From: Ignavibacteria bacterium
GTDB lineage: Bacteria; Bacteroidota; Ignavibacteria; Tepidaquicellales; OLB5
Assembly (NCBI GenBank): GCA_020852705.1
Contig: JADZAP010000041.1
Span: forward strand, 1-61,048
Direction: 5' to 3'
Length of the DNA stretch: 61,048 nt
Shown here: piece after piece, positions 45,672 to 49,583 of the stretch
Position numbering within the stretch: the stretch's first letter is position 1
How the letters are laid out: each line of letters starts with the position of its first letter
Notes under the pieces: generated by a model
What the model was told of the DNA's origin: nothing
The model's input: the letters and a program-made list of their open reading frames with translations, nothing else
Database searches by the model: none
Made by a program: the position numbers and the translations under genes

Positions 45672-46730
45672 TTATTTAACTAATAATAATTTTTTAGTTT
45701 CAATAAACCTGCCTGAATTGAGTGTGTAAAAATATACACCGCTGGAAAATTTTAATGCATCCCATTTGACAATATATGTGCCTGCAGAATAATCACCGTT
45801 TACCAGCTCGGCAACCTGTTGACCGCTTGAATTAAATATCTTTAATGTTACAAAGTTTCTCTCAGGTAATTCAAACTTAATATTTGTTACCGGATTAAAC
45901 GGGTTTGGATAATTTTGTGAAAGTTCATAACCTTCAGGAATTCCTGTATTCAAATTTGTAATTCCCGTTACGCCGCTTACTACATAACGAATATCACCGG
46001 TCAATGCACGGGATGAGAAAAAGGAACCGGTTGGCGTAAACGGAACAGAACGACCATCGCCTGTAACAAGATGTATATTTGTATCCAGATAATTTTCAAG
46101 CGGTGGGGAACCTGTTCCAAAGTATCTTGGACCTGATACAGTGAATTTTAAAGCTACCCCTACTGTATCACCGGCACCAACAAATATAGGTCCAAGCGAA
46201 ATTGGTTCTGAAATACCGCTTGATGTAGGTCCCTGAAAACCAGAAGCTGTATCAATTAATGTCCACCCTGCCATTGAACTGCCCGGACCAGAACTTACAG
46301 GTCCGCCAAGTGCATTACCATTTCGTGTATATACCTCAAACGTGATAGGTGAGTTAGCTGTTGCTGTGCTTCCTGTTCTGATTTTTGTTACATAAACATC
46401 TCTTGTGTTGCCTATTAGGTTCATGAATATTGCCCAGTTAACTGAACCGCCATTATTTGCAGGACCCGGATTAGCCGCTAAAATTAATGTATCAACCGAA
46501 CTGAAGTTTGGTGTTATATTTACCAATCTGTTTAACTGAACAGAAACATTCTGGTTTTGCAGGGGGTTATCAGTTACAATATTTATGTTTGCGCCTAATT
46601 GATTTTCAGCTTCTAAAACATCGCTATCTTTTAATCCAGTTAACACAAAAAATCCGTAAAAAGAAAAAATTGCAGTAAGAAAGAAAAGAACAATCCGTGT
46701 AGAATTATTAAATCCTGTAACTTTTTTCAT
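45672..46730 (-). CDS. Secreted protein with T9SS sorting domain
   Basis: 352 residues. Signal peptide (about 1-28), an unknown beta-rich passenger domain (about 35-260, rich in Gly/Ser/Thr/Pro, with TLILAANPGPANNGGSVNW and GAGDTVGVALKFTVSGPRYF) and a complete C-terminal sorting domain: LSQNYPNPFNPVTNIKFELP, KIFNSSGQQVAELV, SSGVYFYTLNSG, KKLLLVK. It is monocistronic, with its own terminator. Function unknown. Confidence 0.84.
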   Translation of the reverse strand: MKKVTGFNNSTRIVLFFLTAIFSFYGFFVLTGLKDSDVLEAENQLGANINIVTDNPLQNQNVSVQLNRLVNITPNFSSVDTLILAANPGPANNGGSVNWAIFMNLIGNTRDVYVTKIRTGSTATANSPITFEVYTRNGNALGGPVSSGPGSSMAGWTLIDTASGFQGPTSSGISEPISLGPIFVGAGDTVGVALKFTVSGPRYFGTGSPPLENYLDTNIHLVTGDGRSVPFTPTGSFFSSRALTGDIRYVVSGVTGITNLNTGIPEGYELSQNYPNPFNPVTNIKFELPERNFVTLKIFNSSGQQVAELVNGDYSAGTYIVKWDALKFSSGVYFYTLNSGRFIETKKLLLVK

Positions 46731-46865
46731 TTTAACCCCCTTTTTATTTGATTTAAGTAAAACATAATCATTTATTCAAAACAATTCAATATAAATATAA
46801 AATGCTATATTTTAAAAATACATAATTTTAACTGTTTTAAAGTAATATGTTTTAGTAAATTTGCA

Positions 46866-46882
46866 GAACAATCAAATTGTTC
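46866..46882. promoter_or_regulatory. Inverted repeat just upstream of a start codon
   Basis: GAACAAT-CAA-ATTGTTC, a 7-bp perfect palindrome with a 3-base spacer, ends 11 bases before the ATG at 46894. It could be an operator or a 5' UTR hairpin; no regulator is known. Confidence 0.3.
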
Positions 46883-46893
46883 AGCAAATTAAT

Positions 46894-47784
46894 ATGAAAT
46901 TCAATTTAATTATTTTAATACTGCTGCTGAATTTATATGTATATTCACAGCAATCTGCTTTATTCAGTACACCGCCGGGTAATATTACACTGCCTTCAAT
47001 AATTACTGATAACAACAGTGCGCCTAAATCAACCGGAATTGTGGCAGTTGACTCTAAATGGATTGCTTCTTCACAGCCGGCAGCTATATCTTTGCTTGAA
47101 GAATATTCAAACTCACCGGATAAAGGGATAAGAAAAATTATTAATGATATACTTTTAAAAGCAAATGTTTCTGAAGAACTTAAAAATAAACTTACTATAA
47201 AATTTAAAAGCTCGGGAATTGAGGAGAGGGGAATTGATATTAATAATGTTTCCTTAAAAGATGATTTTGCAGAAAAATATTCAGGTGATAATCTTTTAAT
47301 GATAACAAAATTATTCAGTACCAATAACGCTGTAATTGAAATAACCGAAAGCGGTGCACAGCAATTTAATACTGAATTAAAAAATGCTTTATCTGACGGG
47401 CTGAGATTTGGAAATAAAACCGAAACAGCTGTTGAAAATAAAATGATAGTAGAAATTCAAAACTTAGTATTTGCTTACGAATACCATAATATTAATATTG
47501 AACGATTAACGGATAAAGAATTAATTGTACCTTTATACTACAATGTTGAAATTGGAATAAATTCAATTTCAACTATGACAGTTACAGAAGGTCTTGATAA
47601 TGACCTGTATGTTAATGTAGGTTCTTCTATATTACCAAAACCGGTTGAGTTCAGAATTTCACCTGTAAATCCTGCTGTAAAATTCAGAGTTGGCGGCAAA
47701 GAGGGATATACAATAAAATATATTAATGTAAGCGGAAACAAGGCTACATTTTCACTTTCCGGATTTAATGTAAAGTTCCAATAA
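46894..47784 (+). CDS. Putative secreted protein of unknown function
   Basis: 296 residues. The start is ATG at 46894 (MKFNLIILILLLNLYVYSQQ, a clean signal peptide with cleavage near residue 18); an upstream TTG at 46861 in frame would run through the inverted repeat and was rejected. The mature part has a helical segment (ISLLEEYSNSPDKGIRKIIND) and then beta strands. No family recognised. The gene stands alone and converges on the small RNA unit at 47834-47968. Confidence 0.7.
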   Translation: MKFNLIILILLLNLYVYSQQSALFSTPPGNITLPSIITDNNSAPKSTGIVAVDSKWIASSQPAAISLLEEYSNSPDKGIRKIINDILLKANVSEELKNKLTIKFKSSGIEERGIDINNVSLKDDFAEKYSGDNLLMITKLFSTNNAVIEITESGAQQFNTELKNALSDGLRFGNKTETAVENKMIVEIQNLVFAYEYHNINIERLTDKELIVPLYYNVEIGINSISTMTVTEGLDNDLYVNVGSSILPKPVEFRISPVNPAVKFRVGGKEGYTIKYINVSGNKATFSLSGFNVKFQ

Positions 47785-47833: not shown

Positions 47834-47864
47834 AATAAAAAAGCCCCTAATTAAAAAATTAGGG
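47834..47864 (-). terminator. Terminator of the minus-strand small-ORF unit
   Basis: CCCTAATT (47845-47852) and AATTAGGG (47857-47864) form an 8-bp stem with loop AAAA. The T run (TTTTTTATTT) is on the minus-strand side only; on the plus strand no T run follows. So this terminates a minus-strand transcript, not the plus-strand gene that ends at 47784. Confidence 0.8.
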
Positions 47865-47887
47865 ACTTCAAACAGGTTTGGGCAGGT

Positions 47888-47923
47888 TTACGCCCGTGCC
47901 CTCCTGAAACTTATAATTAACAT
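47888..47923 (-). CDS. Possible 11-residue leader-like peptide
   Basis: ATG-TAA frame coding MLIISFRRARA, with a Shine-Dalgarno AAAGGAGAG five bases before the ATG, stronger than at most genes in this window. The peptide is short, hydrophobic then arginine-rich. The downstream stem overlaps its last codons and stop, as in attenuator leaders, but no gene follows on this strand before the terminator. Confidence 0.35.
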   Translation of the reverse strand: MLIISFRRARA

Positions 47924-48098
47924 ACACTCTCCTTTCTTAAGCGGGTCTGCTTTTATTCCCCGCAATCTAAATATACCTGAATTTTTATAAAATTAAACTC
48001 TAATTTTTAAATTTCTTTAATTTAGTTAAACTGATTATTCAGTTTTTTTTATATATTACCTTAAATCTCTTTATATTTTATTTTATTTTTGTTACTCA

Positions 48099-49088
48099 AT
48101 GAAGACCACAATTACAAATGACCCCAAAGTTGCCGCTGAGTTTATTAAAGCAGGTGAAATTGCCGCATTTCCAACGGAAACCGTTTACGGACTTGGTGCC
48201 GATGCTTTCAATGAAAAAGCTGTAAAAAAAATTTTTACAGCTAAGGGCAGACCCGCTGATAATCCATTAATAGTACACATAGCAAATAAAAAAGATATTT
48301 TGCTGCTTGCCCGGGAGATCACTCCTTCTGCAAAAAAGATAATCAGCAAGTTCTTTCCGGGTCCTGTAACTGTTATTTTAAAAAAAAATGAAATTATACC
48401 AAATGCAGTAACGGGGGGACTTGATACAATAGCTATCCGTATGCCTTCGGGCAGACTTGCAAAACAGCTTATCAAATCAGCTGGAGTTCCAATAGCTGCA
48501 CCAAGTGCAAATTTATCAGGGTCACCTTCACCAACAAATTTTATGCATGTTTTGCGTGATTTCAATAATAAAATTCCATGCCTTTTAATTGGTCCTTCTG
48601 CTAAATACGGACTTGAGTCAACTGTAATTGATTGCACAGGCAAACATCCTGTAATTCTCCGCCCGGGCAGCATCACCTTAGAACAGATTAAAAAATTAGA
48701 TAAACATGCAGTATTATTAAAAAAATTTACCAAGCTAAAAAGCCCGGGACAGAAGTATAAACATTACAGCCCGAAAGCAAATGTAAAACTGATAACTGTT
48801 CATAATTCAAAAGGCAAAAGTGAAAAGATTAAAATAAAACTGAATGAACCATCAGAAAGACAAAAAGAGATAAAACAAAAATGTGCATTTATTGGATTGG
48901 ATAAAAATTTTGGCAGGAGATTTGAAAAAGTTTTGATTTGCAGTTCACTCAGCATTTACGCTAAAAAACTGTTCTGGTTTTTCAGGCAGTGCGATGAAGA
49001 TAATATTAAAATAATTTATTGCCAAAAAGTTGATGAAAAAGGAATTGGTACTGCAATTATGAACAGACTGCAGAAAGCTGCTAATTGA
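48099..49088 (+). CDS. Threonylcarbamoyl-AMP synthase (Sua5/YrdC/TsaC type)
   Basis: 329 residues. It makes threonylcarbamoyl-AMP for the t6A37 modification of ANN-decoding tRNAs. The YrdC domain (1-205) has FPTETVYGLGADAFNE, AKGRPADNPLIVHI, FPGPVTVILKK, IRMPSGRLAKQLI and APSANLSGSPSPTNF, then STVIDC and VILRPGSIT. A C-terminal Sua5 domain follows (about 225-329, GQKYKHYSPKANVKLI at its linker), making it the long Sua5 form. A 1.2-kb repeat island follows. Confidence 0.94.
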   Translation: MKTTITNDPKVAAEFIKAGEIAAFPTETVYGLGADAFNEKAVKKIFTAKGRPADNPLIVHIANKKDILLLAREITPSAKKIISKFFPGPVTVILKKNEIIPNAVTGGLDTIAIRMPSGRLAKQLIKSAGVPIAAPSANLSGSPSPTNFMHVLRDFNNKIPCLLIGPSAKYGLESTVIDCTGKHPVILRPGSITLEQIKKLDKHAVLLKKFTKLKSPGQKYKHYSPKANVKLITVHNSKGKSEKIKIKLNEPSERQKEIKQKCAFIGLDKNFGRRFEKVLICSSLSIYAKKLFWFFRQCDEDNIKIIYCQKVDEKGIGTAIMNRLQKAAN

Positions 49089-49583
49089 TTGTTTTCCCCT
49101 TTCAATTGTCTGCCTTGTAAAGTTGAGGAGATCACCCTTCTCCTTTTAGGAGAAGGGCTGGGGAGAGGTTTTAAATCATCTGCTTTGCGTCTTTTAGTGT
49201 TAAATGCTTTTTGATTTATAATATCAATTTTATGTAATTCGTGAAAATTAGTGTAATTCGTGGTTAATCGCATTTATTTTATAATGTCATCGCTTCTTGG
49301 TTATTTTTTCTGGATTTTCATCCCCTCTTTACCCTGCTTACCTTGTAAAGGATTGCCTATGCAGTTTTTAGGAGAGGGCAGCGGAATAGGTTGTAAATCA
49401 TCTCCTTTGCTTCTTTTAGTGTTAAATGCTTTTTGATTTATAATATCAATTTTATGTAATTCGTGAAAATTAGTGAAATTCGTGGTTAATCGCATTTATT
49501 TTATAATGCCATCGCTTCTTGGTTCTGTTTATATGGTAATGCAAAAGCTAAAAAATTTCACCAATTCGTGGTTATTTATTCTA

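Follow-up and report, generated by a model that had tools for sequence, protein, structure and literature searches.

An apparently free-standing small RNA gene with an 11-codon open reading frame: a candidate undescribed RNA family in Ignavibacteria

Three kinds of described system resemble the locus reported here. Dual-function small RNAs, such as SgrS/SgrT, VcdRP (PMC8672173), and SR1/SR1P of B. subtilis, are short stand-alone transcripts that carry an open reading frame (ORF) behind a Shine–Dalgarno sequence (SD) and an intrinsic terminator. Leader-peptide attenuators present an SD, a short ORF, a hairpin, and a terminator, in this order, upstream of the gene that they regulate. In Flavobacterium, the ribosomal protein bS21 hides the anti-SD of the ribosome, and messages with a very strong SD, chiefly that of rpsU, are read by ribosomes lacking bS21 (PMC9976891). 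A search of the literature for an RNA of the present kind in Ignavibacteria found nothing relevant.

The stretch of DNA analysed (61,048 nucleotides, hereafter called the “window”) is contig 54 of the 2.9-Mb draft genome of an Ignavibacteria bacterium. It carries what appears to be a free-standing small RNA gene with three hairpins, a candidate undescribed RNA family. All of its parts are located on the minus strand at 47836-47968, with a -10-like box just 5′ of them, as follows.

47969-47975, minus strand: -10-like box TATATTT, of the Bacteroidota type TAnnTTT; each of the 13 copies has either TATATT or TATAAT here
47836-47968, minus strand: predicted transcript of about 130 nt, its ends placed by the -10 box and the terminator; matched by the covariance model
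47941-47963, minus strand: hairpin 1, with a covarying stem (GCGGG/CCCGC), at the 5′ end of the predicted transcript
47929-47937, minus strand: SD AGAAAGGAG, which is GGAAAGGAG in two relatives; the ATG always follows after 5 nt
47888-47923, minus strand: ORF MLIISFRRARA, running from ATG to TAA, with a length of 11 codons in each of the 13 copies
47899-47905, minus strand: internal SD-like AGGAGGG, corresponding to codons 7-8 (AGG AGG); it does not vary among the 13 copies and is paired in hairpin 2
47873-47906, minus strand: hairpin 2, spanning codons 6-11 and the stop codon; covarying
47837-47869, minus strand: intrinsic terminator with a 13-bp stem and a T run, the latter on the minus strand only

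The stop codon lies in the apical loop of hairpin 2, an arrangement that is less clear in the copies of genomes G009 and G012. The original prediction had placed the TATATTT box, hairpin 1, a strong SD, the 11-codon ORF, and a terminator with a T run exclusive to the minus strand here, and all of them are located accordingly. Its alternative GGGC/GCCC pairings over the end of the ORF are not conserved; a single GGGC is retained, for which there is one pairing only. The fold is stronger than those of dinucleotide shuffles, with z-scores of -2.8 to -5.7 overall (about -2.9 for the window copy and -3.3 to -5.7 for five relatives).

A BLAST search of 15 genomes of the family matched six congeners at 78-83% identity. 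The covariance model built from these six sequences and the window copy detects the RNA in 13 of the 15 genomes, representing two of the three genera, with E-values of 8e-10 or better, while the next matches follow at about 3e-3. One of the copies, that of G001, belongs to a different genus from the window genome. The RNA is absent from G003 and G002, which also lack the neighbouring 307-aa gene, and thus the whole block has been lost or is unassembled in these two genomes. The original prediction had staked itself on the conservation of the stems and the ORF in related genomes; this comparison was run, and both are conserved.

Outside the family, a class-wide search with the model (a 391-genome sample, strict filters) returned only weak terminator-like matches and no copy. 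A second model was run over the order, and the weak matches inspected were terminators, one of them preceded by a tRNA, without the SD-ORF layout. A pattern search in the order yielded, besides the RNA, matches that appear to be coding sequence. In a DNA-pattern scan of genome contigs, the true matches were all Ignavibacteria or Chlorobiota MAGs (one titled Chlorobiota bacterium), and the remaining matches, on reading, lacked the RNA and added no further true copy. A look-alike peptide in Verrucomicrobiales, MFLQIMRRVFY, was rejected, as reading the match revealed no RNA there. Phage sequences and viral contigs contained no copy. In Rfam 15, at both gathering and permissive thresholds, nothing came near a cut-off: GibS (16.2 bits against a gathering score of 115), DUF3800-I (22 against 44.2), and Yfr10 (26.6 against 43) gave weak alignments, mostly to the terminator. 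By these searches, the RNA has so far been seen in one family of Ignavibacteria.

The alignment of the 13 copies, fitted to the structure of the model itself, has a covariation score of 0.272, as compared to 0.130 ± 0.014 for shuffled alignments; none of 500 shuffles reaches the observed value, and slid controls score only 0.05-0.10. In this alignment, 95.7% of the cells pair, and two-sided changes occur in 14 pairs. All three hairpins covary. The arms of hairpin 2 vary in concert, as in GCAAG/CUUGC, GCACGG/CCUGC, GGGCG/CGCCC, and GGGUGU/ACACCC. A UUUGA linker is kept in 12 of the 13 copies, and the predicted transcripts range from 120 to 138 nt. A start-codon hairpin proposed by RNAalifold (alignment columns 53-77) was dropped, because the G001 copy breaks it.

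The SD, the 5-nt spacer, the ATG, the 11 codons, and the TAA are present in every one of the 13 copies with zero indels from the SD to the stop codon, unlike the rest of the RNA, which varies in length. We take this fixed layout as a strong sign of translation, and the locus very probably holds a genuine RNA gene that is conserved and whose ORF is translated. The evidence that the peptide sequence as such matters is weaker. The predicted peptides conform to M(I/L/Q/S)(S/I/L/N)ISFRRA(R/W)(A/V/L) in 12 copies, all of which keep ISFRRA, and the divergent G009 copy encodes MTKAILRRVFS, which shares just M1, R7, and R8 in register. Non-synonymous changes occur at codons 2 (I/L/Q/S/T), 3 (S/I/L/N/K), 10 (R/W/F), and 11 (A/V/L/S), and the peptide as such may therefore be unimportant. 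In 12 of the 13 copies, codons 4-5 and 7-8 do not change even in their nucleotides, with codons 7-8 being AGG AGG in all 13, and this fits a constraint on the RNA as well.

These observations bear on the possibility that the transcript is a micro-mRNA, which would serve to make the basic 11-residue peptide MxxISFRRARx and whose hairpins would do no more than stabilise the message. The invariant ORF layout and the retention of ISFRRA would agree with such a message, whereas the four freely changing codons, the nucleotide-level freezing of the others, and the G009 peptide speak against it, and we consider it unlikely. A conventional trans-acting small RNA, in which the ORF is unimportant and mRNAs are paired through single-stranded parts such as CCUAUUUGAA, has a comparably low probability in our judgement. 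The covarying scaffold, the terminator, the UUUGA linker, and the stand-alone character of the unit would all suit such an RNA, but it would leave the indel-free SD-to-stop layout unexplained, and Hfq is missing from the family. Both Hfq and CsrA were found in 0 of the 15 genomes with positive controls, and an Hfq-dependent small RNA and a CsrA sponge RNA were therefore rejected. The best explanation, which we hold with about even confidence, is an ORF-bearing small regulatory RNA, either dual-function or ribosome-coupled.

Does the RNA belong to a neighbouring gene? On its 5′ side, the window has a divergent Sua5-type gene, while the relatives have a peroxiredoxin, a dihydroorotate dehydrogenase-like protein, a divergent ORF of ~670-700 codons, or what we take to be an SRPBCC-like protein. 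On its 3′ side, wherever this side is readable, the neighbour is convergent and its identity varies (a SET-domain protein, an MFKKT-type gene, or a 296-307-aa gene); it usually lies 0-120 nt past the end of the RNA. The surroundings in G010 and G013 were read in 3-kb loci. In the window, the gap after the terminator is about 50 nt, and the closest ORF to follow on the minus strand begins at 46730, on the far side of the convergent plus-strand gene, which agrees with the earlier statement that no gene on this strand follows within reach. Two copies have a same-strand ORF downstream. In G008, an apparent insertion sequence interrupts the terminator, and a transposase-like ORF (MSHQLKTDYSQIFLLPPSIEDWVEKDH...) lies 39 nt on; judged from the contig context, this looks like a later disruption. 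In G011, a 216-codon ORF is listed 209 nt downstream, and was taken as spurious because the relatives have the convergent MFKKT-type gene there.

The product of the convergent gene of the window (46861-47784, plus strand), 307 aa long, looks secreted and matches nothing in Pfam; across the family, this gene is in synteny with the RNA. Elsewhere in the window, two near-identical short ORFs (MRLTTN(Y/F)TNFHELHKIDIINQKAFNTKR...) at 49016-49273 and 49301-49495 on the minus strand mark a duplicated intergenic repeat.

The combination of a varied 5′ gene and a convergent 3′ gene argues for a stand-alone transcript, neither a leader nor a remnant of one, and the RNA most likely forms a unit by itself rather than serving as an attenuator or as the dedicated antisense of a single gene. 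Among the roles offered by the original prediction, the stand-alone small RNA or dual-function RNA is borne out by the conservation, the synteny, the promoter-like box, and the terminator, while the remnant leader falls away, as no copy with a readable 3′ side heads a gene. A peptide-sensing transcription attenuator, or what is left of one, is thus very improbable. The leader-like order of the SD, the short ORF, the hairpin, and the terminator, together with the tandem Arg codons, might recall one, but the next gene is convergent across diverging species, and hairpin 2 and the terminator coexist rather than exclude each other. Moreover, AGG accounts for 17% of the Arg codons and is not rare, by which stalling at tandem rare codons was rejected, and the RAR (+X+) motif of a macrolide-type arrest leader is lost in G012 (RRAWV) and G009 (RRVFS). 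Least probable of all is a cis-antisense regulator acting through the overlap of 3′ ends, as had been proposed for the neighbouring plus-strand gene: the convergent gene is usually close by, but it differs among species, and in the window the terminator stops about 50 nt short of it.

How might an ORF-bearing regulatory RNA work? First, a ribosome would load on the strong SD, read the 11 codons, and melt hairpin 2. Second, the melted hairpin would free its C-rich 3′ arm, CCUGCCCAA(U/C)CCUAUUUGAA, including CCCAA, for pairing in trans. Once the stop codon is reached, the internal AGGAGGG would be at the distance typical of an SD and could keep the terminating ribosome in place. Finally, ribosomes with a free anti-SD may be what the RNA responds to, as with rpsU in Flavobacterium, a possibility that we raise because most genes of the lineage lack an SD. 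We infer each of these steps, as well as transcription itself, and the full mechanism, from ribosome loading and the opening of hairpin 2 to trans pairing and the link to the state of the ribosome, is tentatively proposed. By folding, the SD is predicted to be only partly open (unpaired probability 0.30-0.73), and the internal AGGAGGG to be hidden in hairpin 2 (0.02-0.20). No conserved competing structure inside the RNA is released by opening hairpin 2.

The RNA has a strong SD in genomes where few genes use one. An SD is present in 5 of the 46 genes of the window, and at a threshold of -8 kcal/mol with the long tail, in 9-12% of the sampled genes of three relatives, as compared to 1-3% at mock positions. 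A published table gives 32% SD use for Ignavibacteria, with the anti-SD CCUCCUUU, and 13% for Chlorobia (PMC10783764); the low use thus belongs to the genomes sampled rather than to the class as a whole. The 16S 3′ tail of the family was not found by a pattern search or in sampled stretches, and the anti-SD link therefore rests on an assumed tail. A tail ending in UUUCU (...CUCCUUUCU) would allow 9-bp pairing with AGAAAGGAG, and with the assumed tail AUCACCUCCUUUCU, the SD of the RNA would pair at -16.1 to -17.4 kcal/mol, stronger than in all 763 sampled genes. With shorter tails, it would pair at -12.0 or -9.4 kcal/mol, and with the shorter tail ACCUCCUUU, 28 of the 763 genes are as strong or stronger. 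For an rpsU-like message, the SD was expected to pair with at least -13 kcal/mol in a genome poor in SDs, and the value for this RNA depends on the tail assumed. The internal AGGAGGG is predicted to pair with the anti-SD at -10.7 to -12 kcal/mol. As read from the sequence, the internal AGGAGG of most copies ends 6 nt before codon 11, a spacing that would suit SD pairing by a ribosome positioned on the stop codon.

In addition, rpsU in 14 genomes of the family has a conserved SD-like element of the AAGGGGT(G/T)A type upstream of a probable TTG start. This element is in line with the Flavobacterium work (PMC9976891), and suggests that the bS21 autoregulation of Bacteroidia and Chlorobia may extend to Ignavibacteria. 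A more specific version of the ribosome-coupled reading, to which we assign a low probability, is that the RNA detects or traps ribosomes whose anti-SD is exposed. Recruited by the extended SD, they would be held 11 codons later, at the stop codon, by renewed pairing of the anti-SD with the internal AGGAGGG, and through the opening of hairpin 2 their occupancy would become a trans-acting signal or a ribosome sink. The RNA would then be a sensor of ribosome composition built from a minimal ORF.

The locus provides a candidate undescribed RNA family in uncultured bacteria without Hfq or CsrA, where RNA regulation is little known. Its 11-codon ORF is very short among the ORFs with comparative support, and annotation pipelines normally miss such ORFs. 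If the reading of the SD is right, then ribosomes with a free anti-SD would, in the Bacteroidota-Chlorobiota-Ignavibacteriota group, have a second kind of message besides rpsU.

Compared with the known systems, the RNA shares with the dual-function small RNAs its predicted short stand-alone form, the ORF behind an SD, and the intrinsic terminator. It differs from them in that its ORF has only 11 codons, the end of which is built into a covarying hairpin, in that its family lacks Hfq, and in that its pairing target is putative. With the leader-peptide attenuators, it shares the order of the elements, but it has no regulated gene downstream, and its hairpins are not mutually exclusive. Like the rpsU mRNA with its extended SD (PMC9976891), it would, with the assumed 16S tail, have an exceptionally strong SD in a lineage where few genes use one; unlike that mRNA, it encodes an 11-residue peptide instead of bS21 and has a second SD-like site inside its ORF, and the occlusion of the anti-SD in Ignavibacteria is proposed by analogy.
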